Below are positions 6,283 to 61,890 of a DNA stretch of 64,000 nt, one piece after another (positions within the stretch are counted from its first letter, which is position 1; the number at the start of each line of letters is the position of its first letter). The notes beneath the pieces were generated by a model. The model made no database searches, was not told the DNA's origin, and saw only the letters and a program-made list of their open reading frames with translations. Position numbers and translations under genes: made by a program. The stretch lies in the NCBI GenBank assembly GCA_963969395.1, contig OZ017805.1:806001-870000 (forward strand), in the 5' to 3' direction. The stretch comes from Pseudoscleropodium purum. Taxonomy: Eukaryota > Streptophyta > Bryopsida > Hypnales > Brachytheciaceae.

Positions 6283-9200
6283 CACTAGAAGAAATTTGTG
6301 TTTTTGTGGACAAGTGTTCATATGTGTCTACATGTTTTTTGAAACATCACATATATATTGCAGATGTTAGAAAAATCCATTAAGATTGATATGGAAAAAA
6401 CACGAAGAAATTTGAAAAAAACATACCATGTTTTTAGAAAAACATCCCAACAAATACAATTTAAAAAAGTGACCAAAATGTACCATGTGGCAACCACATA
6501 AGTGCTACACAAGGAGGTAATGCCGCGTAGGATTTTTTTCACTTGATCAGAAGATGAGATGATAGTTGACATCATGTTTTTGAAAATTTTCATAGTGTTT
6601 TAAATGACATCAACGTAGACGTTCATAAAAATTTGAATAGTATTTTTAGCAACATCGATTTTGATCTGCAAACATTTTCTAAGACATCAATTTTGATGTT
6701 AGCTAAGACATATGTTGTTTACAATACATTATATTCCAAACACAATACATCATATACAATACACCAAACATTCTACAACATACACTATACATTGTACACA
6801 ATATTGGCAATAATATTGAATGACTTGAAAAGCCTTATTGTCAATATTTGAACATGAATAGGTAAGTTATTTATGCAAGAGGGGTGGCTAGAAGGAAGAC
6901 AAACCATATGGGAGATCTAAAATGTAATTTTTTTTATTATAAAAACGGAATTTTAGATTTAAGTACTATGATGAACGCAATGTTGTGTTGCAAAAAACAT
7001 TCAAACATTACAAAGGATGTCTTAATTGACATCGCAAAAAACATCTACCTACAATAGAAGACATCTTAGCTAACATCTACTATGACAATGTTAGAATTCT
7101 GAAATGGCATTAAAGCATGGTGACATGGCATGCCACTTCATGTTCTTTGACTACCATATTACTCAAATGCCAATGTAAGTGACTTTTTTTGGAAAAAAAT
7201 GCTATGTGGTTTACTTTCACCTATTTTTTCACATGTGGTCACCTTTTTACCTTAGGCCTAAAGATTTTCTAGAAATTTACTTACAACCAAATCTGAAGCC
7301 CTTACTAATGTGTGCAAGTCATTTGTAGTCTTTCTATCGTTCTTCTTGTCCCAAGTAAAATCCAAAATGTTGGTCCCAACCAAAAACATAAGCTCTAAGA
7401 ATTCTCTCAATTTCTTTAAATGTATCATATATCTTATGAAATCAAAGATCTTTTGTGATTTTTCCTATAAGATGTATTTTACATCATGCTGATTTAAAAG
7501 AGCCCTCAACAATAGAAAATGAAGATTTGAAGTAGATACTCTTGCACAAAATGTTGAATAGGAAAATCATATTCATTCTTTATGAAAATCAAATGTTCAA
7601 TGTTGAAGCTATACTTAAAGAAGATGTCACTCTTAGAAATAACTAATTAAAATAGTGAGTATTTTAGGATTTCTTTTACTTTTAAGTTTAGTCAATACCA
7701 AATGTTGGTGCCTTTGCATTTTGGATTTACATATCATAGATGTAATAACAAAAGGTGAATATCTAATTTTACAATACCATTATTTTACCTACATTTTAAA
7801 GATCATTTTTTATTAATGAAATAATGAAATTGGATAGAATTTTCATTTATAGGAGAAAAAATGCCTCATAGAATTTCAAGATGATAACAAAATTGTTTCT
7901 AAACATGCAAATAAGAATTTGTGCTAAAATATTGAATATGGCTATAATATGAAAAATGCAACGTCTTTCAATCTATTTGCAATCCAATTATTTTAAAGCC
8001 CTCAATGGAAAATGAAATAATTGCAACATACAATAGAAATGAGTGCAGAATCATTGTTTTGTTTCTAATTTTTTTTGTTGTTTGAAAGAAGATATGAACA
8101 ATAATTACACTAAAAAAACATCCAAAAACATCCTCAAAAAATAGCTAAGCTTTTAGCTTCTTTACATTATCAAATTGTTGCACCTTGGTGCATATGTGAA
8201 ATATAATTTTCATAATACAAAAGGTTGTTGTATATATGCAAAAAGTTGCTTGTATAATGTTAAAAGCTTCTTTTATAATTTGAAAAGGTGCCTTTATACC
8301 TTATCAGTTTGTGAGGGTTGGCAAATAAGTTATTTTTCAAGAATCCAAAAATAAAATAAATTGAACAAGAAAAATTGTCAAATTCACCAAAAATTACTTT
8401 GTGATGTTCCATTGTTCCCTTGCACAAAATAATGGTACAAGTAGAAATGGTATTAAAATTTGTACAATTAGTGTAAGAAAATTTCAATTGGTTAAGCTTT
8501 ATTTCTTATAACCAAAACAATCACTACAAAATTCTTGAAGTTAAATTCTATTATAAGTTTATCTTTTTATCTAATACATGTATAAAATTTTGATATTTTT
8601 TACTAGTATAAATTTCACTTTTTTGTTTCAGTTGATTTTTTCAATAATTTGGATGAAAAAATCAAATTATTGTAATTTTTTCAAGCTATAGGTGAAAATC
8701 TAATTATAACAATTAGAATATATATTAGAGTACTCTATAAATTTTATCATAAGTACAAAATAGAATGAAAAATATAATTTTATAACTTATATCTTGAATA
8801 AATTTTAAAAAATAATATACAAATGAAAAATGTACAATACTATGCTATTTGGATACAAACACATGGAGCTTTCAATTGCAATAATTCCATCAATTTTTGA
8901 CAATTTTCAAAAATTTTCAATAAAGAAAAAACAAAACTTGTCAAACTTTATTTAAAAGAAAATTTAAATCAAATTTCAAAAGTCGTTTTTTGGAAAGTTG
9001 CAATCAAGGTTGACTAAGGAACATCTATTTTTAGGATGTGTGGATCTTTAGAGATTAAAGACCAAAAAAATAATAAATAATAAAAATAAAATTTTATGCT
9101 ATTAATTAAGGAAAAAAAGATCACATTCAAAAATCCAAATAGGCTACTTTTTGTTTTTTCAACAACCAAATATGATGCTAAGATTCCTGTAAACTGCCAA

Positions 9201-10280
9201 AACAAGGCAATGTGTTGATATTTTAGATAACTTTTTTGAGCACAAATCATGGGGAGAAGCTTGAATAAATAATCTTGAAAACAAAAATCGGCCAACAAAT
9301 TATAACTCTTGATTAGCACATGACAGTTTGATTACATAATTCAAAAAAAATTTGAATTAAAAAAAAAATCCCATCAGGAAAAATATAGAATTATAAAATC
9401 TTGAAATTTAATGTGGCATTTACACAACCCCCTCAAATTACTATTTTTGAACTATATTTTTTCAATTAATTTGGATTGTCTATGCTATTTTTAGACATTC
9501 ATGTACATTTTCTGCAAGCGAAGTGACAAGAATCAGAAATTCCCACAAAAAAAATTGCAAATTCAAAGAGTGGTGTAGTATTCAAAGATCAAAGTAGTCA
9601 CAATACCATACAATTGTTTGAGCAATTTTAAGAAGATTAAAATGAACTAAGAGAATAAGTTTGACCATTTAAAAATGCATGGAGTCCTCAAGGGGGTAAA
9701 TGATGATGTCATTTTAATAACAATATATATTGTTCAACAAAATTTCTAAAATAAATTATTGTCCTTCAATTGCCCTTTCTCCTTGAAACTTTTTTAACTC
9801 CAAATTCCAACGCTTCCTAAAAGTACTTCATTTTTTTCCCTCACTAAGGTCACTATATAGAACTTCATCATGCAAAAATGTAGAATACAAAACTTTTATG
9901 CACATCCATGCTAATGTTTTTCCAAAAGACAACAAAGACCTACCTTTCTACTAGATTTACTACAAGTGGCCAACTACTGACTTGACCCCTAAATAACTTT
10001 CCCAAAGAAATCCCTATGTAAAAAGGGCTTTAGCTGCCAATGTGGCGATCTCATGTTCATGAGGACATTTCCAAAAACATGTTGATGTTCACAACGACAT
10101 CACATTCAAGATACTTGTCATACAAAACATTCACTTGTTTCACATTTGACATCCACATGCTCATATCAACATCCTTAGAAATTCTTGCTTCTTAGGCAAC
10201 CACTTGATTTTCTTGCTTATGTTCTAAAAAACATGCCTGCTTCCTAAAAACATTCCAAAAAACACTATTTTCTTCTAGTG
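6283..10280. mobile_element. CACTA/EnSpm-like non-autonomous element (~4.0 kb)
   Basis: The left end reads CACTAGAAGAAATTTGTG (6283). The reverse complement of the right end, ending at 10280, reads CACTAGAAGAAAATAGTG, and similarity continues through the following T-run for about 26 bases. The flanking triplets are TTA (6280-6282) and TCA (10281-10283), one C/T transition away from the 3-bp duplication expected for CACTA elements. Both subterminal zones are rich in 'aaacatgttgatgt'- and 'acatc'-like words (6310-6720 and 10060-10200). The interior is AT-rich with no recognisable transposase, so mobility would depend on an autonomous relative. Confidence 0.55.
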
Positions 10281-13301: not shown

Positions 13302-13915
13302 CTATAGTTGTCCCTTCATCATCATCTCTCTGCCCTCCCTCTTGATATCTAGCATCGTTTTAGTCATTTGCAATTTCATCTTTTCAATCTCTATAATTTC
13401 CTTAGAGAAACTAGTAATGGCGGAGGCAATGAATTCATCTCCGAAAGCCAATTTCTTCTTTCTTTTAAATACACTCCTATCAACTTGTCCCACACATCTA
13501 GGTTGATTAATTGCTTGTGTGCATGGTGACAGTGAAGAAGTACCACCTATAGAGGAAATAATAGGAGTAGTAGGCTATGTGTTCTCATCATCACTCACAA
13601 TGTGATCCTTTGAATGTTACAAGCAAACCCCTTGGTCAACACCATGCGGCATCCCATTGATTTAGTAGTACAACCAAAAATGTCATCAAAAATGTCATAC
13701 TATAGTGGCCAAGTAGAAGGTAGTGCTTTAGTTTTGTTTTGCTTCACCTTCTCCAAATACGTTGGCTTCATTTTATTCCACTTGTCATGGATTTATTGCT
13801 AAGATTTCTAAGGGTTGTATGAGAATTGTGTATTGATCTCATGCAAAAAATTTCCAATTTGATTTCTTGAACGATTCATGGTTGCATTTTGCAAATTTTT
13901 TTGACACATATCTAT
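13302..13915 (-). pseudogene. Myb/SANT-like (trihelix) protein remnant, probable PIF/Harbinger ORF1
   Basis: Read on the minus strand, the region near 13790-13640 gives HDKWNKMKPTYLEKV, then WPL-YDIFDDIFG, the signature of plant Myb/SANT-like proteins that accompany PIF/Harbinger transposases and help bind element ends. Downstream are a low-complexity Ser/Thr stretch, then RSVFKRKKKLAFGDEF (basic, possibly nuclear localising), and a Lys/Glu-rich C-terminal helix (residues about 25-60 of the last open frame, 13493-13302). Several stops and frame changes interrupt it. Its 3' end points toward the transposase remnant at 12.5-12.9 kb, so the two are convergent and may be parts of one old element. 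Confidence 0.6.
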
Positions 13916-14437
13916 AAGAAACCTTACAGTCCCCTCTTTCTACTCCCTCAACAAAAACTTTAAGTACCCCCTACCTCTCTCTTGAGTCTCTTTATGAACA
14001 TCACCCCCTTCATTATCAAATATGAGTGCTAGTATCCCCCCCTTGGAAGCTCTATGATGTGCACAAATTCGAAAATTCTAACTCTCTTTCAAACAATCAA
14101 ATTGACCTCGCTACCTACCACCGACATCCACCACTTTTCTTAGCACATGCATGGGTATACCATCTCTCTCCTTGAGATAGAATTGTACTAGAAAAGAGCT
14201 CTACCAGAGCAAGTGCCAATTGTTGCTAACTCCCACAAATAAAGGCGGGTTGGGCCTAGCAGAGAAATTCTCACTTTTAGGGGGTAAGAGAAATTTGCGG
14301 ATCCTTTAAGGCCAGTGCTACTTTGTTTCTCCCAAAGTTACTCTTCTAGGGCAAGTTACAAGACAAGTTAGGTTTGAATTTTTTTATTCTTTGAGCATTT
14401 TGTACTTGTGCTGAGGTCTTTCTTTGTGTAATTTTGT
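13916..14437. other. Short spacer between two PIF-type remnants
   Basis: Contains pyrimidine-rich tracts (about 13930-14080) and a moderately GC-rich segment around 14200-14340. No gene, terminal repeat or RNA feature could be identified. Confidence 0.35.
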
Positions 14438-15289
14438 TTGCTAATTGCTTTTAAGTTGTGCTTAGAAGTTAGAATAAGTATGGAAGACGAGAGTTTGTTG
14501 AAGTTGCTTCTTACCAACAATCTTCCACCTTTTAAAGGCATTCCTTCTCAAATTTCTCCTCTTATTTCTTTTGTTCCTACTTCTACACCTCCCTCTTCTA
14601 TATCACAAATACCACAACAAGATCGGTATTAGAGCAATGCTGCCATGAGATTTTTGTTGTCACAATGCAAGGAGTATATAGAGGCTCACAACTCTGTAAT
14701 GATTAGAAATCATCAGTGGATGAAGACTCACAAGCTCTTTATTGCTCAATTTTTGCAAGAATTTGTGAAGAAGGTGAAATTGTTATTGAACAAGTGGAAA
14801 AAGTTGTAAAGCACATATTTAAAGATGAAGAAGTTGCGAAACCAAAGAGGTGGCGGTGTACGTAATGATGGTGCCAAATTTATTTGGTATGACAAAATTA
14901 AGACCAACAATGTTCTTAGAAGCATTGACAAAGTTGTTCTCGTCCTAGGCCTAGGGACCTCTGATGCACCTGTAGATGTATTTGATGAACACAATAAACA
15001 TGGGTAGCCATTTTCACCACCAACTTCTTATATTGGCTATGAAAGCAGTAGAAATAGTCTATGAACACGAGTAGCAAACTTACCAAGTTCTCGCAGCAAA
15101 AGTACTTCCTCAAAACCAAATAAGCGATCTAGAACTGAGAAGAATGTTATGTACATTTTGGACAAGTTGGTTGATTTTGTAGTTGAAATTGAAAAGCTAA
15201 AGATTAAGGCTACATTGACCATATACAATGATAACTTGATTGAGTGTCAAGAGAATAGGAAACTTGAACTTAAATTGTTACGTTTGTAG
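14438..15289 (+). pseudogene. Second Myb/SANT-like (trihelix) remnant, plus strand
   Basis: The first open segment starts at 14438 and includes a Pro/Ser-rich tail. After a stop (14630) the frame continues with a helix-rich stretch (QWMKTHKLFIAQFLQEFV) and then LLLNKWKKL, a Tyr/Lys-rich helix and a Gly-rich turn before FIWYDKI. That order matches the third helix and tail of a trihelix/Myb-SANT domain ('KWK-L...Y...RGG...F.WYDKI'). The last part (about 15100-15289) is a charged helix rich in Glu, Lys and Leu ending at TAG 15287-15289. At least two stops interrupt it. It faces the PIF transposase remnant at 17.0-18.0 kb, mirroring the pair at 12.5-13.9 kb. Confidence 0.5.
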
Positions 15290-52099: not shown

Positions 52100-52107
52100 A
52101 TGACGAC
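52100..52107. other. Target-site duplication, left copy (ATGACGAC)
   Basis: Perfect 8-bp match to 61883-61890. Eight bases is the standard duplication length for hAT insertion. Confidence 0.93.
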
Positions 52108-52120
52108 CAGGGTTGACAAA
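52108..52120 (+). repeat. hAT left terminal inverted repeat
   Basis: CAGGGTTGACAAA directly abuts the left target duplication. It pairs with the right terminus with two mismatches in 13. Confidence 0.9.
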
Positions 52121-52133
52121 TCTCTACGTCCGC

Positions 52134-52235
52134 CCCAAAATAGCGTCCGTTTTCCGAACGTCCGGACACACGGACGCTAGTAGACGCAGCGTCCCTCTCG
52201 CCGTCGGAAGGCGGACGTGCGGGGCCGCTTAGAAA
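52134..52235. repeat. Left subterminal CGTCCG repeats
   Basis: The hexamer CGTCCG or its inverse CGGACG occurs about eight times in direct and inverted orientation within 100 bases (for example cgtccggacacacggacgc), next to AT-rich DNA. In hAT elements such subterminal repeats are transposase-binding sites; that role here is inferred. Confidence 0.75.
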
Positions 52236-52578
52236 ACCCGTTTTGGGTTTTTTGTTTTGATTGTTTTCACCAATGAGAGATTGAGAGTGAAGTCATTTGG
52301 ATTTTGATTTTTCTTATATTGCAATTGCGATTCAATAGAGTTGTATATCACTATTTATGTAAAAGCTAAAATATGAAATATATTTTTAATTTTTTTTGTT
52401 GAATTTCATTTTGATTTAGAAACAAAATCACTTTAAAATCCAGCGAGATGTATATCATCAATAAACAAACAATTTTATAATAAAATGATTGAAGAAACCA
52501 TTGTCATTTGTCAACATGAGCTCCATATATCATGAGCAACTAAACAATCAAACATCTAAATTCACATCTCCACAATTC
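52236..52578. other. 3' flank of the transposase gene
   Basis: AT-rich sequence between the left subterminal repeats and the transposase stop; it would hold the 3' untranslated region and polyadenylation site. No other feature seen. Confidence 0.4.
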
Positions 52579-55500
52579 CTATGGACGCCAATCCACATTT
52601 CCTCTAACCTCAGCCCCACTACTCTCTCCTGCAGCTCTCCGTTCAAAATCTTCATTATCGGAGTCATCTTCATTGTTGGAATCAGGTATCTTTGTCTCCT
52701 TCAAGTCTTTTCTCAAAGTAGGTTTACTCCCTTCTTTCGAATTTAATTTTTCTTTTTTTACTTTGACAGAACGATTAAAGGCTTTTTGAATAGGAACCTT
52801 TCTTTTCTTTCTATTTGACAAAGTAGCAACATTTTCATCAAGAGGGGTCTTATTCTTCACTGGAGAGATAGCAAAAGGTTGCATTTCTCTTTTCTCTTTC
52901 ACGTTACTCGATTCTTGAACCATCAATCTCAATGTAGGGTCGACATGTCCATGAACGGTTATCTCCACTTTGGCTTTCTTTTGAAGTAATAGAGTGCCGT
53001 TTGTTGATTTGATGGGTTCTTGCGCCATTCCTTTTGCTAAAATACAAGCACGCAAAGATGCCAATGGCATCCGATCACTATCCGTTTCACTTAGGCTTGT
53101 AGGTGATGACGCTACTTTCCGTAGATTATCGCCTGTAGAAATTTCCTTGGAAATGTTCATTAGGCGTTTTCCATATCCAAAGCTCTGAGAATCATTCAAT
53201 CGTGTGCTAACAGACTTCAACGGTATTGGTGGAAGAACACTAGATCTTGGTACTTCAAAAATTGACTTCATTGGCTCTTTTCCTTTATCACTCTTTACAA
53301 TTGCCGAATTTGTGACTGCCATCCCAAATGAATCATTACTTTTCTGTACCGCAATATTTGGTTCCCCCTCATTACCACTATTGTTGCCCACATCTTTTGG
53401 AACATCCACCTCTATGACCGCATCTTCTCTTTTGTCGTTTCCTTGCATTACATTTAATGCCACAGATGGAAATTGAGAAATTACAACTTCTTCATTTCTC
53501 CCATCATCACCAATAGCATTCTCATTGATTTTCACCTCTTTGGCAATAGCGTTTGCCTTTTCCGATAGAATGTTTTCGCTATTCAAGAATCCCATTCTAT
53601 TGCAATATGCAACTAAAGAAGGTAGATTCTCCTGTACCTCTACATTGTCCTCGTCTTCACAAAAGGTATATGCATCGTTTGCATTGTCGGGAACCACATC
53701 CTTGCGATTTAGATGATAATCATGCGTATCATTCACCAAATCGGGAAAGCCTTCTATAACGTCTTCATCTCCCCATGCTGTCGCACGATTGAAGTCATCT
53801 CTGCCATCTACAACTGAAAGGGCCCTTTCCAAATCATCGTCATCATTGTCATCATCGTCTTCTAACGTCGGTCTATCTGAATCCTTTGATTCCATCGGAT
53901 CCACATTATCATTATACCATTTTTTTTCATCTTTTTCCTTCGATGCGTTTAATACTTTGGAATTGGTATACACGTACACCAAATCCACTGCTCTCTCCGG
54001 CTTCAATTTATTTCGAGATTTGTTGTGAACAAAAGAATAGTTGCTCCAATTCCGTTCACATGAAGATGATGACACCGGTTGAACCAATATCCTCTTCGCT
54101 AATGGAGCTATAAACTTGCCACATGCACCTTCAAAATCCCACCAAGCATGTGCGGACAACATTTGTTCTCCCGGATTCAACATATTGTGGAATGGAGGTT
54201 CCTTGTGTCGAAAAGCCACAAATTCCTTCACCATTGCTGCATATTCATCCGGTTTACATATTCTCTCCAAAACTTTCTTACATCCTGACATTGCATCTGC
54301 GTCATCCGCTAGCTCTTTATTATGAAGAAGGTATGGATTCAAAAGAGCTGCGGCTGATTGGAGATCGTTGTCCACCATTCTTCTTTGGGCATAAAAAGAC
54401 TGTACCAATGGAATTGCAAGTTCTTCTAGCAAACAAAATGGTGGACTTTGTAATCCGTTCACGTGCTTCTCTAACTTCCTCATGATATGCAACCCCTTCC
54501 CCATGCATGGTGATTTTGAATCTAAATTGCGGAGTGCACATATGATTGGTTCAACCATCTCTACATAATTGATGGACCGATTCCAAAAATGGTCATCAAG
54601 AACAATTTTCTTCACCGCTAAGGCCAAGTCTTTTGATTGGACTTTGGCTCCACGTTTCTTCTTGAGAGTATGTACATACTCAACCCATTGCGGATCTACC
54701 ACCGTTTGTTCCAATGCTCTTCTCAATTTTGTCAAACGCTTCATCATGATAAATTTAGAGGCGAACCTTGTATCCCCAGGCATCAAGAGACCAAGATTTG
54801 GCGAATACTTTCGCAATAGAGCTAGCGGCATATGTCTCTTCCTGATAAATTTAGCTACAAGAACTCCTTTATCCAATTTGGAAGCAATCCATTTCTGTGC
54901 AGCCCAATCTTTCAACAACAAATTCAATGCATGTACTACGCACCCTTGGTAAAAAATATGAGGATATTTTGCAGATATTACATCCCATGCGGACGGATTC
55001 ACGAGAGCATTATCCGTAGTTATTAACACGACGTTCTTGGACCCCACTTGTTCAATGAACTTTTCCAACACAGCTGCCAAGTACTCCGCATTTTTTTCAC
55101 AACCACTTGTATCCACAAATCCAAGAAATTCTTCACTTGCGGATGATACAAGCATGACATTGATGAAAGGTCGATTAGTCACTGAGCTCCATCCATCAAT
55201 GGACAATGTTGCTCCAAATTTTTTGAATGCTATCTTCGGTCCGTGCATTCAACTGTGTCTGAATGTTGGTCTTCGCCTCATTCAACAATTTGTACCGAAG
55301 GTCCTGGTACGAGGGAGGAATGTATGGCCTACTGAACGCAGCTGTTTTCTTCACTGCTTCTTTAAAAGTTGGATTTCGAGCCACGGAAAATGGTATGTTT
55401 GCTGAATAAAAAAAATTTGCCCACACTGAATGTAATTTGCGTCTATGACCTTCTTCAAACCCATTCACTAAGTTGCCTTGCCTTTGAGGCCTACAACTTG

Positions 55501-55969
55501 ATGCCCTCAGGGTTTCACGTTCACTAGAAGCTTTTGTATTCAAAGTCATTTTAATTGTGGCACATACCATTGATACCAATTCTTTGGACGCTGGACAAGA
55601 GTCTTCGTGGTCAGAATGCGACACAGCCTTTCCGGCCGAAAACTCTTGGACATCTGAAGGGCTAGGGTTGCCATCCACATTGTTCATTACAACGCGTTTT
55701 GGAAAAACTCCTTCGCAATGCTGAAATAAATCTCGAACTGCCATTGATAATCGTGGACAAAGGCTCATCCCTTTATCACGTACACCTTCAGGCCCAAAAT
55801 AGCCTAAGTGGCTGAACATACGGCTGAGCTTCCTTGACATGCTCGCTTTGCAAAGCCTACATTTTACTTTACCACCCTCTTGCACACTAAACCAAGGAGA
55901 AAAATCCTCCGTCGGTTTGGCCACCATACTGACAAGTGTATGTTTTACCTCAATTTCAAAAGAAACCAA
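52579..55969 (-). CDS. hAT transposase (BED finger, DUF659, hAT dimerisation domain), one apparent frameshift
   Basis: The first segment (55969-55196, 257 codons, ATG at 55969) has a BED-type zinc finger at residues ~31-60: VKCRLC (Cys37, Cys40), then His54. The second segment (55248-52579, 889 codons) opens with a DUF659/RNase H-like core: LSIDGWSS (Asp18), LITTDN (Asp79), CVVHALNL (Cys103, His106), GDTRFAS (~158-164). The hAT C-terminal dimerisation region is at ~350-432 (SSSSCERNWSNYS, then LVYVYTNSK). Removing one base from an A6 run on the coding strand (55219-55224) joins the segments as one protein of over 1,100 residues. After residue ~440 comes an extension of about 450 residues, acidic then Lys-rich and ending in basic patches, not normal for the family. 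It would cut and paste this element. The frameshift may be a real mutation or a homopolymer sequencing error. Confidence 0.9.
55219..55224 (-). other. Six-base homopolymer at the transposase frameshift
   Basis: TTTTTT on the plus strand. One base fewer would fuse the 257- and 889-codon segments directly at ...SIQK/FGATLSIDGW. Codons here do not form a standard minus-one slippery heptamer. Confidence 0.7.
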
Positions 55970-56219
55970 TAGAATGTTTTAAATTTGAAACCCACAACGT
56001 GACAATGTATACAATATCAATGAAATTAGTCACATAAAGCTTTGAAAATCAAAGCCCCCCTGTCCACCGAACTATGCATTACCAAGCAAAAGACTCAATA
56101 AGTTGAAGCTCATAGCCCTTGGAAATCTTAGCATTCGGTTTTTCGAGAGTGAATACCAAAGCTTCTCTACTAACATTTATAGTCCCCTCCAGAAAATTAA
56201 AGGTTCATTTTTAGGGTTT
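55970..56219. other. 5' leader of the transposase gene
   Basis: Moderate-composition DNA between the transposase start and the GC-rich repeat cluster; presumably promoter and 5' untranslated region. No clear TATA element could be fixed. Confidence 0.35.
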
Positions 56220-56224
56220 CCATT

Positions 56225-56515
56225 CAAAAACAAGCAACGGCCCGGACGGGGCTGAAGCAAACGGGCGGACGGGTCGAACGGGTCGAACGGGTCGGTCGGA
56301 CAGGGCAAACGAACGGGGCGGGCGGATGGACAGGCGAGATGAGTCAAACGAACGGGTCGGACGGGCGGTCGGACGCGGCGGGCGGGGCAGTCGGACGGGG
56401 CGGTCAGACGAGACTATCCGCACTGTCCGCCTTCCAACGCCGTCCGCGCTTTGGACACACCGACCACCCCACTTAAACACTGACCGCCGACGGCGTCCGC
56501 CCAACTGTCCATTGG
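56225..56515. repeat. Internal GC-rich CGGACGGG cluster upstream of the transposase gene
   Basis: CGGACGG/GGGCGGAC/CGGGTCGAACGGGT words repeat densely, ending with a shorter inverse portion (tgtccgccttccaacgccgtccgc). Relative to the transposase's direction the repeats read CCGTCCG. The 124-codon minus frame and 89-codon plus frame across it are Arg/Pro repeats from the low-complexity sequence, not genes. Confidence 0.85.
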
Positions 56516-59270
56516 AGCATCTTATGAGGCCGATATTACTCAAAAAGAGTAGTAACATTTCCAAAAAAAACAACCTAATAATCACTACTAAATGAGGATC
56601 AATGTAATTGATTTATCATTTTTTTTTTTTTAAAATGTAAACCCTAACCCCTATATCCTAATTACCCTAAACCTTTTCTTTTCTCCCCTAAATTGTTTTA
56701 CGAATGAGGGGAATGTGGTTAAGTTGAATATGTTTGGATTATTTACTCATATTATCCTTCTAAATAGGTTTTGAGAAGATCTGAAGATGGTGGGGATTTT
56801 CTTAAAGTTCATTAGGAAATCAAATGTTTTGCAGAAATAGTCAATTTCTTTTTCATCGTAAGCAAATGAAATTTTTTTAAAAGGCCCCAATACATAATTA
56901 GAATAACAGTTTAATGGATTTCAACCTCATGATATTTAATAAAAGGTTGTGTTTTCTAATTAGAAGTGCATCATGTTCTTCAAATGAACATCGAGTCTTT
57001 CATATTTTTTAATGAAATTTTGATTAGATTTGAAAACAAAGAAAAAGAATCAATGTTTTAACTTTCAAATCATATATGGCTATATTTTTCCTTGAAAACA
57101 TAGAAAAATTCGTTACTTGAGTTGGTTGAGTAGAATACATTATACACTTATACATGTGCTATATTTATTTTGAAGGGTAATTCCAATATTCTTATTTCAG
57201 ATGTTTTTAAATATTAATTTTAAAAAAGAGGATTCATTGTTTAAAGATCTAAAAAATTGAAAAACATAATTTCTATTATAAATAGGAATTGAATTCGGAA
57301 TTCAAATTTTGAAATGATTCAAATGAACAAGATATTGATTATAAAATATTTCTTCGTTTGAGTTTTCAAAATGAATTCACGAAACAATTGCAAACTTTTG
57401 AACTTAGGTATATGATATTGTTTTTAGTTTGTACTTTGTAGAGTATAATACTTCAATTTTAATCCTAAATAAATGAAAAACTCCACATCAATGAAATGTT
57501 TCTATGTATTGCACAAAGATTTCTACCAATTACTATGATAATTAAATACATTGTTACATTTCATAAAATATTCTACATAGAAAGAAAAAATCATTTTAGT
57601 TTTCAATCATGATAAACAATGTCTTCTATTCTTTCTGTTATATGTTCATTTTGTATAACGTGTACATTGTACAATCTTTGAGAGCAAGGTAGTTCATTTT
57701 TGACTCTCATTGAAATAGAAAATATATTTGTGTTTGGATTTTGAAATCATTATATATTCTACGGTCTTGCAAGAATGCATCTTACTCGTTCCTTTGAATC
57801 CTTTTGATATTTTTTTTTTTCCTTTGCTTTCTCGTAGGGCTCTTGTTCTCTTGTTCTCTTCATTTGACCAGCCTATTTAGCTTGGCTCTTAGTTTTTTTT
57901 TTTTTATTGCAATGGTTTATGCATATGTTATAAAAAATATATATTATTTATTTAAAATTAATATATTGATAAACAAACGCATAAAGGCATTGAATGCTTT
58001 CACATTTAAAGTTATAAATCTATCATGAATCACTCTTGCAAATTTGAATGATTAAATTGAAAATTTGAAAATGTAATTACAAGAGCTTTCAATTCAATCA
58101 ATTGCATAAATCATAAATGTTGAAATGCAACTCGTATGAGTTTAGCATCTATGAAGATTAATTCATGCCATCCACATGCAATTTTCCAATTTAATAAAAT
58201 GCAATTGAGTACTTCAATTTCTTTCCCTTCAATTCTCCAAGTAACATTCACTTCATATCTTTCTCTATTTGTTTATTTAATTTTTGGGAACAAATGGAGA
58301 AACCATCTTTGTCTATATTTGAGCATGCACTCTTATTTGATTGATGAAGAATAGATTTATGAAATATATAATCATTGATTTGTTCATGTTGATTTATCTA
58401 ATATATTTTATGTATATATATATATATCATTAAAGGAGTATGGAAGATAAGATTGACAGATTGTGTTTGAATGTTGTTGATTTTGAAATGATTTAGTACT
58501 ATATCATTTATAAGAATATTATAATAGTATTATGTTATAATATTCCTAAAACAATTGCAACAAATATTAAAATACATGCTAAGTTAGGTTTGTTAGCCTA
58601 CCAATTGTTCATTAATAGACATAATTGAGTAGCCCCCTTAAATGAAACATTCAATATCTAATATCTTACAATCCAAATGGTGGATTTGTCTAAAATTTTT
58701 TCCACATCTTTTCTAACTAATTTACTACAAGATCCTACAGTTACATATGCCCAAAAGTATTTTTCTTCCAAGACTTGGTATTTGTACTACTAATGGCAGT
58801 TTTGAAGTGTTTTTAGTAAAAAGAACTTTAGGGGTTAAACATCTATACCGTTAGATTTTGAAAAAAGAACAATTTGCTTCATTGGGATAACTATAAGTCC
58901 ATGCTCTTTTTTGGTAGCCAAAACACACTTGCAAGGACTTGGACATTTAGCGGTTTACTAAGTGATTAGACGTCAACTAATTCAATTTAATAGTAGAATT
59001 TTTATTCAACTACCTTCTTATAATTGCTTTATACACAATGCAACGTGAATATTTGGGTACTTATATTAAACGTCGCAATCCTTTTGTGAATTTTTGCACA
59101 TTTTAGCTCATATCTTTGTACAAAAATATCATTTACCAAGAATTCATAAATTTGGTCATAAAGGAAGGCTACCTTTTTTAATTTCAAATTTTACATTGAA
59201 TGAATGAAAAGTTAGTCGGACTATACAGTGCCATGAAGACCTTTGTTTATCGTGCAAAATATGGACGTCG
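56516..59270. other. AT-rich central spacer of the hAT element
   Basis: No open frame over 75 codons and no known domain. A short degenerate telomere-like stretch (aaaccctaacccctatatcc) lies near 56638, a TA run near 58411, and 58850-58960 is a diverged copy of 1225-1345. The spacer contrasts sharply in composition with the flanking genes and may include an older inserted repeat. Confidence 0.5.
58850..58960 (+). repeat. Dispersed repeat copy shared with 1225-1345
   Basis: Both copies read, in order, 'gattttgaaaaaa', 'cttcattagga/cttcattggga', 'cca-tgctcttttt', 'acactt-(g/a)aa', 'cttggacat/cttgggcat'. Same orientation, roughly three in four bases alike by eye. Confidence 0.6.
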
Positions 59271-59280
59271 AAGCACTTTA

Positions 59281-59610
59281 GGGTGAAACCGCCCCGTCCG
59301 CCTTCGTACCCGTCCGCCCCATCCGTCCAGACCCCCGTTCGCCTAGACCCCATCCGCCATCCGCCCTGTCTGCCCCGTCCGCCCCGATACGGCCGTCTGT
59401 CCCGTTACGACCGATGCGTCCACCCCCCCGGACCGTCCGATCGGGCGGACGCCAGATTTGTCCGCTCGTGGCCGTCCCATCGAGCGGACGGGGCTGTAGG
59501 GTTTCGGGGAGGCGGACGGCCGATCCGTCCGCCACCCCCGGCCCGTTCGATGGAGCGGACGGTTTAGGGCCGTCCGCCCTTATAAGAGGGGTGGACGGGC
59601 CGTCCGCATT
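59281..59610. repeat. Internal GC-rich CCGTCCGCC cluster upstream of the kinase-like gene
   Basis: Dense CCGTCCGCC/CCGCCCCGTCCG words, then CGGACGG words toward the 3' side. It mirrors the cluster upstream of the transposase: read in each gene's own direction, both start as CCGTCCG arrays. Arg/Pro open frames on both strands here are low-complexity artefacts. Confidence 0.85.
59581..59586 (+). promoter_or_regulatory. Possible TATA box of the kinase-like gene
   Basis: TATAAG, preceded by CCCTT, sits at the 3' edge of the CCGTCCG cluster, about 220 bases before the start codon. Position and sequence fit a plant TATA element; no transcript evidence. Confidence 0.4.
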
Positions 59611-59803
59611 GTCACTTTTGCTTTGCCCCTTGTGAATGCAAGGTGGAGCAGAGAGCTTGGTGGTTCATCCTCCATTGGCTCCTTTCCGAGGCAAGGCAAG
59701 AGTGGTTTATTGGGGCCCGCCCCCTTGTTGCCAATTTTTTTAACAGTTGCGCGTGAATTCACATTTAAATTAGAAAATTTCATCTATATCAGTTTCATTT
59801 GTC

Positions 59804-61300
59804 ATGATGACGAAGGGGAAGAAGAAGGTTGCGAAGCTTAAATATGGAGAGGGACCATCAAACTTGGAGATAGCTCGCCAAAGTCCTTCGGAGGAATGCA
59901 AAAAATTCATGATTGAGTGCATCGTTCAATTTTATGAATCGGAAACAACATTGTCTTTAAACAATAAGTACATCAGATATCAAGAGGAGTGCGTGTCTAA
60001 ATTCAAGGTAGACATGACACAGATGTTGTTGGATGCATTGAATGTGGCAAAGTGGCATGACGAAATGCATAAAACGTACTTCACCAAATGTTTGGAGAAC
60101 AAGGTTCATGACGTTTTGTGGAATTCCAAAGTCATTTTGGTTAAATATGGCAAGGAATATCGACCCAATGACGTCCAGTTTGAAGAAGTGATTCTGAAAG
60201 CGGACTTATTTAGGGGGCGATGTGCTCCATTCGCCAAAAAGCACAATCGAGTTGGTTCAATTGGTTGGTGGAAAAGCAATGATGGAGTTGCTGAAGCGGA
60301 AAGGAACAAACGGCACCTCATAGCACTTCCAGATACAGCACGCGTGATTGCTGTTGATGATAGAACGATGAGAGGTGGATATGCAACGATTCGAAAGGTT
60401 CGTATTGAAGGATGTCCAAGAATACTTCTTTATTGGGAGTTTGCGACAAAGAAATCCATTCACCATCAAACTCGACCCGATCTTGCAAAGTTAGAACATC
60501 AAAATGAATCAATGGCTGTTCGAATTCCACACGCAGGTATGATACAGTTTGCTGCGGTGCACGGAACGACGTGTGAAGGTTATGCGTATTGGTGGAATGG
60601 TGGAACTCTTCGACAAATGTTGAATATAGATAAGGACTATCTAGACAACATTCAAATCTGTTTGATGTATACGAATCCAATCGAAGAGGAGGTTGTAAAA
60701 GCTCACAGTTTAGGACGATATCAGAAAAAGCGCATGGAGTTGACATGGGCGTTTATGCATATAATGTATGCAGTGCATCTTGCTGGACATTTGCACAATG
60801 ATCTTTCTCCGGACAACATCTTGTTGCATTTTCCAAAGGATGAGTCACGTGTGTACATTGGAGTTTGCGATTGGGACATGACCACCTTAGCTTCTCAGCC
60901 AATGAAGTCTTTGTACACATTCACATCAGCAGATGAGATGAAACAAACTTTGCAGAGGAGATGGTGGGTGGATCCACGTATTGCATATTTGCATAAAGCA
61001 GGTGCAAATGTGGAAGTCATTCCGATGTATTCACGTAAGTCGGAAGAGTATGCCATTCGAAAAATTGCTCGGCGGATGAATGGAAACAACATGTCTGAAA
61101 CGTATTTCAACGTGCTACTTAAAACACCTAGTGCGACACAATTTGCCTTTCATAACTTTGCAAAAGTGTTTTATGTTTACTTGAAGCGCATTTCTTCGAA
61201 GACTGATGATGAAAATACTAGTTTGGCCCATGTGATTACGCGATTTTCTAATACATATCGTTGGCCGATGCCAGATGAACATTTCCGCCATTTATATTAG
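59804..61300 (+). CDS. Intact protein-kinase-like protein carried by the hAT element (498 aa)
   Basis: One uninterrupted frame. ATG 59804 is the first after an in-frame TAG at 59771, and the stop is TAG 61298-61300. Residues 1-15 are Lys-rich. About 20-180 is a helical N-terminal region I do not recognise. RGGYATIRKVRI (190-201) resembles a glycine-rich loop. FATKK (213-217) offers the ATP-binding Lys. HNDLSPDNIL (331-340) is the catalytic loop (His331, Asp333, Asn338; usual Arg replaced by Asn332). CDWDM (355-359) takes the place of DFG with Asp356. WWVDPRIAY (387-395) lies where the activation-segment end is expected. Key catalytic residues are therefore present. I recall similar intronless kinase-like proteins from seed-free plants. 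It is transcribed away from the transposase, within the same termini. Its role for the element or host is unknown. Confidence 0.85.
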   Translation: MMTKGKKKVAKLKYGEGPSNLEIARQSPSEECKKFMIECIVQFYESETTLSLNNKYIRYQEECVSKFKVDMTQMLLDALNVAKWHDEMHKTYFTKCLENKVHDVLWNSKVILVKYGKEYRPNDVQFEEVILKADLFRGRCAPFAKKHNRVGSIGWWKSNDGVAEAERNKRHLIALPDTARVIAVDDRTMRGGYATIRKVRIEGCPRILLYWEFATKKSIHHQTRPDLAKLEHQNESMAVRIPHAGMIQFAAVHGTTCEGYAYWWNGGTLRQMLNIDKDYLDNIQICLMYTNPIEEEVVKAHSLGRYQKKRMELTWAFMHIMYAVHLAGHLHNDLSPDNILLHFPKDESRVYIGVCDWDMTTLASQPMKSLYTFTSADEMKQTLQRRWWVDPRIAYLHKAGANVEVIPMYSRKSEEYAIRKIARRMNGNNMSETYFNVLLKTPSATQFAFHNFAKVFYVYLKRISSKTDDENTSLAHVITRFSNTYRWPMPDEHFRHLY

Positions 61301-61690
61301 ATTGGTAGTGCAGAAGTAGTAGTTGAATAGGTTATATAGGCATTAAAAATTAGTTTAGAAATATAGAGTTGGAATGAAAAAAATTATATGTGCAATTAGC
61401 CAAATGTGCACAATGTATGGTATTCTAAATTAAATTCAATAGATTTTGCCCATATTGATTATGTTTGTATTTGTGTTGATCTTAATTTTTTAAATAGTAT
61501 ATATATATATTTGAAGTCACAAATTTTTTTAGTTTGCCTTCTGAAAATGAATTGGAATTTTCTCATAGTTTCAAGACTATCATGGACTCATGGTCAAACT
61601 TTATAATCTTTCAACTTATAAGAGACATTGTTTTAATGACAAATCGCGAACCATTGCACTTCATTTTAACATTTAATTGTTTAAAGATTA
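61301..61690. other. 3' flank of the kinase-like gene
   Basis: AT-rich, with a short TA run near 61500; presumably the 3' untranslated region. No further gene supported. Confidence 0.4.
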
Positions 61691-61694
61691 AGGG

Positions 61695-61870
61695 AGTGAC
61701 CGCGGGGCAATTTGGGTAGGGCGATCGGGGGAAATAGGGCCGTCAAAGTGGACGGGGCGGACGGGGCGGACGGGGTGACAGGCGGATGGGGCGATCCTGG
61801 CGGACGCTGTGTCCGCGGGGACCGCAAATGTCAGCGGACGCTGCGGACACAGTGTTTGCGTCCGGACATT
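61695..61870. repeat. Right subterminal CGGACG repeats
   Basis: Tandem ggacggggcg words (61748-61780), then dispersed CGGACG/CGTCCG hexamers in both orientations (gcggacgctgcggacac, tgcgtccggacatt) up to the right terminus. Counterpart of the left subterminal zone. Confidence 0.8.
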
Positions 61871-61882
61871 GTGTCAACCTTG
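61870..61882 (-). repeat. hAT right terminal inverted repeat
   Basis: The plus strand reads TGTGTCAACCTTG; its reverse complement begins CAAGGTTGACACA. It directly abuts the right target duplication. Confidence 0.9.
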
Positions 61883-61890
61883 ATGACGAC
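61883..61890. other. Target-site duplication, right copy (ATGACGAC)
   Basis: Identical to 52100-52107. Confidence 0.93.

Follow-up and report, generated by a model that had tools for sequence, protein, structure and literature searches.

The stretch 52108–61882 of the window (the whole 64,000-nucleotide stretch of DNA analysed) is a single hAT element of 9,775 bp, which carries a transposase gene on the minus strand and, divergently arranged, a kinase-like gene on the plus strand. It probably belongs to a large hAT family of high copy number, with gene modules set between clusters of the GTCCG/CGGAC motif, a reading in which the relations of the architectures called here A, B and C are partly, and the role of the kinase wholly, inferred. 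In a copy census run in the same 313-Mb genome, the 51 transposase copies that scored best included 45 with kinase DNA in divergent order at most 12 kb away. Probe searches of the whole genome located 887 kinase, 520 transposase and 416 B-arm places, with 0 for the controls. These counts therefore support the conclusion that transposase and kinase form a regular two-gene element rather than the outcome of chance capture.

Table 1. Features of the hAT element and its flanks, in positions of the window.
Feature	Position	Strand	Remarks
Left target-site duplication ATGACGAC	52100–52107	.	8 bp, same as 61883–61890
Left terminal inverted repeat CAGGGTTGACA	52108–52118	+	11 bp
Left subterminal GTCCG/CGGAC cluster	52108–52307	.	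6 motifs in the 200-bp block
hAT transposase, main ORF, 889 aa	52579–55248	-	DUF659 and hAT dimerisation domain
Transposase, N-terminal part, 257 aa	55196–55969	-	Other frame, weak BED finger
GTCCG/CGGAC cluster upstream of transposase gene	56230–56507	.	Homology between architectures breaks here
AT-rich middle segment	56508–59288	.	No ORF of at least 90 aa beyond its edges
GTCCG/CGGAC cluster upstream of kinase gene	59289–59607	.	One class of copies loses homology inside
Kinase-like gene, 498 codons, open	59804–61300	+	K216/K217, H331-N-D333, N338 and D356 present; Asp358 replaces the usual Gly
Right subterminal GTCCG/CGGAC cluster	61736–61870	.	
Right terminal inverted repeat CAAGGTTGACA	61872–61882	-	11 bp
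Right target-site duplication ATGACGAC	61883–61890	.	Perfect copy of left

The initial annotation had placed perfect 8-bp duplications and matching CARGGTTGACA termini around these 9,775 bp, and both ends and the target-site duplication (TSD) were found as it described, as was the divergent order of the two genes (minus strand at 52579–55969, plus strand at 59804–61300). The window contains two exact matches to the end motif, both of them the element termini. With up to one mismatch there are four matches against 2.4 expected by chance; one of the inexact matches, at 9005, is well outside the element, and the other, at 60004–60014, falls within the kinase ORF and is read as chance. Genome-wide, CARGGTTGACA occurs 2563 + 2556 times versus 83 + 73 times for the reversed control motif, and a short relative of 276 bp was found among these thousands of end motifs. 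A perfect 8-bp TSD is present in four of the five elements traced over both arms (the window copy, L039, L040 and L041+L043), and the TSDs differ among independent copies; in the fifth, the type C element, decay of the right end left no TSD to compare. In L039 and L040, and likewise in the B element, the left end reads CAGGGTTGACG, one base different from that of the window copy.

The transposase had been described as near-intact, which is correct: the main ORF carries both domains, and a frameshift puts the N-terminal part of this copy in a different frame. The main ORF matches the Pfam families DUF659 (PF04937, E 1.4e-23) and Dimer_Tnp_hAT (PF05699, E 1.1e-07, 32 bits versus a cut-off of 21.4); the BED zinc finger in the N-terminal part is a sub-threshold match (E 0.012, 16.1 bits, cut-off 20.6). 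The 8-bp TSD, the C-terminal dimerisation domain, the short terminal inverted repeats and the repeated subterminal motifs are those of a hAT element. With the short ends beginning CAGGG and DUF659, they are shared with the Ac/Ds-like superfamily; what differs is that a kinase-like gene is regular here, and that a sister architecture has a low-complexity ORF besides ORFs of RING-finger-like and coiled-coil-like type. In the textbook picture a hAT element encodes a single transposase, and hAT elements are usually seen as one-gene parasites.

The Pfam Pkinase match of the second gene (E 0.003, 17.5 bits) is below the gathering cut-off of 31.7, and because of this the ORF at 59804–61300 is termed kinase-like and is assigned to no named kinase family. 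Pkinase was reported in all 16 copies scanned (E up to 1), with a best E of 4.9e-05; the best PDB profile matches of the protein are to CaMK1D (E 0.024). In the window copy no Pfam match covers roughly the first 300 residues; a kinase profile search of viral contigs found no relatives, and a single-sequence structure model (pLDDT 33.8, pTM 0.20) was too poor for a fold search. Residues K216, K217, H331, D333, N338 and D356 are identical in all 30 best-scoring kinase copies, and in copies chosen by position they are mostly kept (K216 in 31/31, D333 in 29/30, N338 in 28/28, D356 in 23/24). By our reading of the motifs, they include a putative beta-3 lysine, the catalytic-loop Asp and Asn, and a metal-binding Asp. 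The Lys, HxD...N and D-x-G type motifs follow in the order of the eukaryotic protein kinase superfamily, the difference being HND for HRD and DWG (DWD in the window) for DFG. The initial annotation, which spoke of an intact 498-codon gene with conserved catalytic residues, holds for the open frame and for the K, HxD, N and D356 positions; it does not hold for residue 358, where the window copy has Asp in contrast to the DFG-type Gly found in 25 of the 30 copies.

Among the 51 transposase places scored at 90% identity or more in the genome, window included, the 45 with kinase DNA comprise 18 from lists and 5 + 22 from fetched stretches, and in the other six the kinase gene was not seen where looked for. 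An exact-probe census covered C1 and, of C40, the first 30.4 Mb. At 38 of its 73 exact transposase places an exact kinase probe lies at a distance of 5.3–8.8 kb and in the same relative orientation, compared with a mean of 0.36 and a maximum of 3 in 1000 random shifts of the positions, and the spacing is 6.57–6.95 kb at 34 of these 38 places. Twenty-nine kinase loci other than the window copy were compared, and in 28 of them the homology extends to about 65 bp or less from the right end. Neither an exact transposase probe nor an exact B-arm probe is near 45 of the 100 exact kinase places, a count from which probe decay is not separated. The initial annotation had proposed to look for further copies with the same gene order, and such copies were found. 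Its refuting outcome, copies that nearly all lack the kinase gene, did not appear among the best-scoring transposase copies. The earlier reading of a fixed two-gene element, not a chance capture, is thus supported, and it is incomplete rather than mistaken, there being at least two common architectures and kinase genes that occur without a transposase.

Architecture A, with transposase on the minus and kinase on the plus strand, measures 9.5–9.8 kb in the three copies read (window, L039 and L040). Architecture B, of which one full copy was read (L041+L043), is 11.87 kb long with a perfect TSD; it has no transposase and encodes RING-finger-like and coiled-coil-like ORFs on the minus strand, and a Ser/Gly/Tyr-rich low-complexity ORF and the kinase on the plus strand. 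In architecture C, represented by one element, the transposase, the B modules and the kinase stand in a row. The kinase is the sole gene common to every architecture read, and its module adjoins the right end in both common ones, A and B. Positions 56357–58886 of the window element match the transposase-less element at 92%. A B-arm probe was found near 5 of the 73 exact transposase places (null mean 0.26, maximum 4). The kinase branch of the C element is long, which fits age or decay.

The GTCCG/CGGAC motif occurs 42 times in the 9,775-bp element versus 6 times in the remaining 54 kb of the window, and its clusters sit at both element ends and between the modules. The homology breakpoints of A, B and C coincide with the clusters; one class of kinase copies loses homology at about 59.39–59.44 kb, inside the cluster at 59289–59607. 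A cluster lies upstream of every gene or gene pair, so that the clusters may be transposase-binding and/or promoter elements. As the ends and subterminal repeats are common to A, B and C, the transposase from A and C copies would be expected to move copies of all three. A and B may have arisen from a C-like ancestor by deletion or by recombination, with the breaks falling at the clusters; C itself was read once, and few transposase places (5/73) have a B-arm probe nearby.

The majority sequences of the A and B kinases differ by 7 nonsynonymous (N) and 13 synonymous (S) changes, with an omega of 0.22 (P 0.001). A position-chosen sample was drawn from 53 pieces (L044–L096), of which 17 showing no kinase gene were left out and 36 kept; L059, which just touches the edge of the gene, was among those omitted, and L064, with 299 matching bases, was retained. 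Omega in this sample is 0.90 for singletons, 0.85 for variants in 2–3 copies and 0.65 for variants in four or more. The last class (24 N : 12 S) gives a weak, non-significant signal, with a value as high in 267 of 3000 simulations; excluding C-to-T/G-to-A changes, the shared variants are 11 N : 9 S versus a neutral 3.5:1. The own-genome protein search scores the best kinase copies alone, and for variants in at least four of the 30 best-scoring copies omega is 0.28. Two stop variants are each common to at least four of the best-scoring copies. The stronger signal of this set is partly ascertainment, because the position-chosen copies give a weak one; the excess of silent singletons inside class A of the set also suggests this (L022, a near-duplicate of L016, was left out of that singleton count and of the A/B comparison). 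The comparison of dN/dS proposed earlier for both genes could thus be answered in part for the kinase, while the transposase counts come from three copies and are, like those of the B-module ORFs, too few for use.

The selection data bear on the rather unlikely explanation that the kinase-like ORF is a functionless passenger, hitch-hiking in successful source copies and open through recent amplification. The kinase tree is star-like with short inner branches, singletons are near-neutral, stops occur in 49 of the 86 best-scoring kinase copies, and the position-chosen sample responds weakly, all as a passenger would have it. Against it stand the mainly silent A/B difference, the constancy of the catalytic-type residues and the retention of the kinase in both common architectures. 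Hosts are generally known to make use of transposon genes, and selection could act on a few expressed copies that serve the host, not the element; this is quite unlikely, as the A/B consensus difference concerns source lineages of the element and not one locus.

It is very unlikely that a transposase element and an independent kinase element chance to touch here. The end-like clusters between the genes might be old nested ends, and the one-mismatch match within the kinase ORF points the same way, but the window element has no exact internal end, a single TSD pair spans transposase and kinase in each of the window copy, L039 and L040, and the spacing of the probes is nearly constant at most paired places, and on these grounds this explanation was rejected; an ancient fusion of two elements may lie at the origin. 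A review (PMC13317346) describes gene capture as common among plant DNA transposons, and one hAT copy might have taken up a host kinase gene, with the window representing that one event. Given the 887 kinase places, the divergent kinase in most of the best-scoring transposase copies and the distinct TSDs of independent copies, this is extremely improbable, and the copy census rules it out as a single recent event; a capture in the distant past that later became fixed would agree with a regular two-gene element. Pack-MULE-type and transduplication transposons likewise hold non-transposase genes, with absence of the captured gene in most copies as the Pack-type criterion; here kinase DNA accompanies 45/51 best-scoring transposase copies and occurs in two subfamilies, not sporadically.

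The kinase would aid the spread of the element, and would most likely do so through phosphorylation, either of proteins that the element itself encodes or of a host factor restricting transposition or enforcing silencing. Its retention in transposase-less copies would be easiest to understand if it favours the copy encoding it, or if B depended on it at its origin. Tentatively, and with less than even probability, a core hAT with transposase, RING-finger-like, coiled-coil-like, Ser/Gly/Tyr-rich and kinase genes may split at the clusters into cooperating sub-elements (transposase with kinase; RING and coiled-coil with kinase), with an indispensable kinase acting for the encoding copy via host silencing or transposition control. 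The VANDAL MULEs of Arabidopsis, with the anti-silencing gene VANC, and the KIU MULEs, with an Ulp1 domain, are also DNA transposons with extra genes, and VANC targets, frequently tandem repeats, fall in non-coding portions of the element (PMC5735166, PMC13317346), a layout that may be comparable to that of the GTCCG clusters. These MULEs belong to a superfamily other than hAT, and the likeness is one of gene content and layout.

Among the papers found in an open-licence literature search, no title or abstract opening mentions a kinase gene carried by a hAT element. The present family, with its hundreds of copies, regularly includes a kinase-like gene, and the clusters that lie where modules meet suggest a physical basis for module exchange. 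Kinase genes of such elements could pass for host kinases in genome annotation. The family makes it testable whether transposons use signalling enzymes, such as a kinase or a RING ligase, on their own movement or on host silencing.

The insertion at 52108-61882 of the window is flanked on each side by ATGACGAC and terminates in CAGGGTTGACA and CAAGGTTGACA. With at most one mismatch, the end motif matched four times in the 64-kb window versus 2.4 matches expected; the two exact matches are the element ends, and one single-mismatch match falls within the kinase ORF. This bears out the target duplications and matching ends described in the initial annotation. The same annotation proposed a near-intact transposase accompanied by an intact 498-codon kinase-like gene; the kinase frame is indeed open, while the transposase is split over two frames, in keeping with 'near-intact'. 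The Pfam Pkinase match had an E-value of 0.003 for the window copy and 4.9e-05 for the best of 16 stop-free copies.

Features of the window element and of a complete element of class B, which has the kinase and other ORFs in place of a transposase
Feature	Location	Strand	Similarity or content
hAT transposase	window, 52579-55248 and 55196-55969 (two frames)	-	DUF659 and hAT dimerisation domain
Kinase-like ORF, 498 codons, open	window, 59804-61300	+	weak protein kinase match
368-aa ORF, RING-finger-like stretch	B element (L041+L043)	-	best Pfam E 0.00031, below cut-off; PDB RING finger protein 24, E 0.00018
706-aa ORF, coiled-coil-like by our reading	B element (L041+L043)	-	weak SlyX-type matches below cut-off
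347-aa Ser/Gly/Tyr-rich ORF	B element (L041+L043)	+	no Pfam match
Kinase	B element (L041+L043)	+	
B-element modules	L041+L043 joined, 6541-9765 and 13619-14659		RING-finger-like, coiled-coil-like and Ser/Gly/Tyr-rich ORFs

The searched genome (313 Mb, 52 contigs, containing the window) has 5119 occurrences of the end motif versus 156 of a reversed control. Probes of 30 bases, with up to three mismatches, matched 887 places for the kinase, 520 for the transposase and 416 for the B arm of class B elements, and no places with reversed controls. Protein searches were scored for the best part of the candidates only: the best 86 of 1544 kinase places, which, the window excluded, share 91-93% identity with the window copy and of which 37 are stop-free, and the best 51 of 1303 transposase places, window included, nine of them stop-free. 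The first eight end-motif places cut out included at least one short relative, a 276-bp sequence on contig C1 (~272.2-272.5 kb) with both ends and target duplications alike in seven of eight bases. The genome-wide list also contains many close pairs of end motifs in opposite orientation, which look like further short relatives.

Transposase and kinase are regularly linked. The kinase list includes a neighbour no more than 20 kb away (in practice within 12 kb) for 18 of the 51 best-scoring transposase places, and all 18 pairs are divergent. For the remaining 33, DNA was taken from the expected kinase position, and divergent kinase DNA was found at all five places of a first set and at 22 of 28 of a second, including one (L059) that touches only the edge of the kinase gene. 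The kinase thus accompanies 45 of the 51, in agreement with the initial proposal of a fixed two-gene element. At the expected position in the other six the kinase was not seen: L063 has there the repeat cluster that normally precedes the kinase, and L067, L068, L069, L075 and L076 have no family DNA. An exact-probe census covering C1 and the first 30.39 Mb of C40 paired 38 of its 73 transposase places with an exact kinase probe 5.3-8.8 kb away in the same element orientation (6.57-6.95 kb in 34 of the 38), versus a mean of 0.36 and a maximum of 3 in 1000 trials with shifted positions. Among the 35 unpaired places, five have the kinase by the list or fetched-DNA evidence; 20 of the other 30 were looked at, yielding the kinase in ten, another family part in six and nothing in four. 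Overall, the kinase was demonstrated at 53 of the 73 places.

The kinase also occurs in other architectures. A BLAST comparison of 29 kinase loci gave two classes, in which upstream homology continues (18) or ends at ~59.39-59.44 kb (11); the latter were named B from this breakpoint, and two of them, L041 and L042, were read further. L041 joined with its neighbour L043 gives a complete 11.87-kb B element with perfect TTGCATAT duplications, no transposase and a left end, CAGGGTTGACG, one base different from that of the window element. Since its 368-aa and 706-aa ORFs lie in the same frame with one stop between them, they may represent one gene or two. The 706-aa and 347-aa proteins resemble each other in an N-terminal stretch of 51 residues (41%). 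Type C (L098+L096+L097) runs in one stretch from a left end through the transposase and B arms and the middle segment to the 347-aa module and then the kinase; it also contains three short nested relatives and additional DNA past the kinase, and a right end was not recognisable in it. For five of the 73 exact transposase places a correctly oriented B-arm probe lay nearby, against a null mean of 0.26 and a maximum of 4. The 100 exact kinase places divide into 39 with an exact transposase probe, 16 with an exact B-arm probe and 45 with neither.

The window element contains 42 GTCCG/CGGAC motifs versus six in the remaining 54 kb of the window, concentrated in four places: the two ends and the regions upstream of the transposase and of the kinase. 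This layout recurs in the class B element, which has one more cluster ahead of the 347-aa ORF, and the homology breakpoints between types A (transposase and kinase), B and C coincide with such clusters. We infer that these repeats bind the transposase or act as promoters, and that modules are exchanged at them.

The comparison of dN/dS across copies, suggested initially, gave a divided result for the kinase. In the 30 best-scoring copies, picked by protein score, omega (a dN/dS-type ratio) was 0.80 for singletons (nearly neutral), 0.65 for variants in two or three copies and 0.28 for those in four or more; with L022 left out, none of 5000 simulations gave as many silent changes as seen in this last group. 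The pairwise dN/dS of best-scoring copies was 0.345 (ratio of means), and two stop variants are each common to four or more of these copies. Because the sample was score-picked and class A showed a silent excess even among singletons (6 of 3000 simulations), the test was redone on 36 copies picked by position. Here omega was 0.90, 0.85 and 0.65, the last value, for variants in four or more copies, being not significant (267 of 3000 simulations). The A and B majority sequences, the latter built from 11 best-scoring copies, differ by 7 amino-acid-changing and 13 silent substitutions (omega 0.22, P 0.001), or by 6 and 8 over 905 columns with the position-picked A sample; the A majority differs in one base of 905 between samples. 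In the position-picked sample, shared variants other than C-to-T and G-to-A comprise 11 amino-acid-changing and 9 silent changes versus a neutral ratio of 3.5. These two less biased comparisons favour selection. C-to-T and G-to-A predominate among the changes, as would be expected of methylated, silenced DNA. In the non-coding kinase flanks (L009-L038), the rates were 0.49 and 0.47 per site versus 0.02-0.10 for other changes. In the trees, B kinases form one group (support 89/91 and 92/93) within a star-like burst.

Judging from contig sizes, AT content and the DUF659-type transposase, the source may be a moss or another plant. The window sits on C49 (12.7 Mb), the smallest of the 11 large contigs encountered, which, in a moss, could be a sex chromosome. 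Two inverted transposase pairs have identical scores (C46:391389-394046 and 404526-407183; C49:12644663-12647299 and 12672066-12674702), which suggests inverted duplications; the kinase is absent from the expected place in all four copies.

Sequence comparison reveals nearly identical ends, modular differences and conserved catalytic-type residues. VANC of Arabidopsis VANDAL elements sets a precedent as an anti-silencing passenger targeting repeated motifs (PMC5735166; PMC13317346); the likeness to the present hAT family is one of layout only. Elements of types A and C would supply the transposase that mobilises all types, and the kinase may modify an element or host protein, favouring transposition or escape from silencing.
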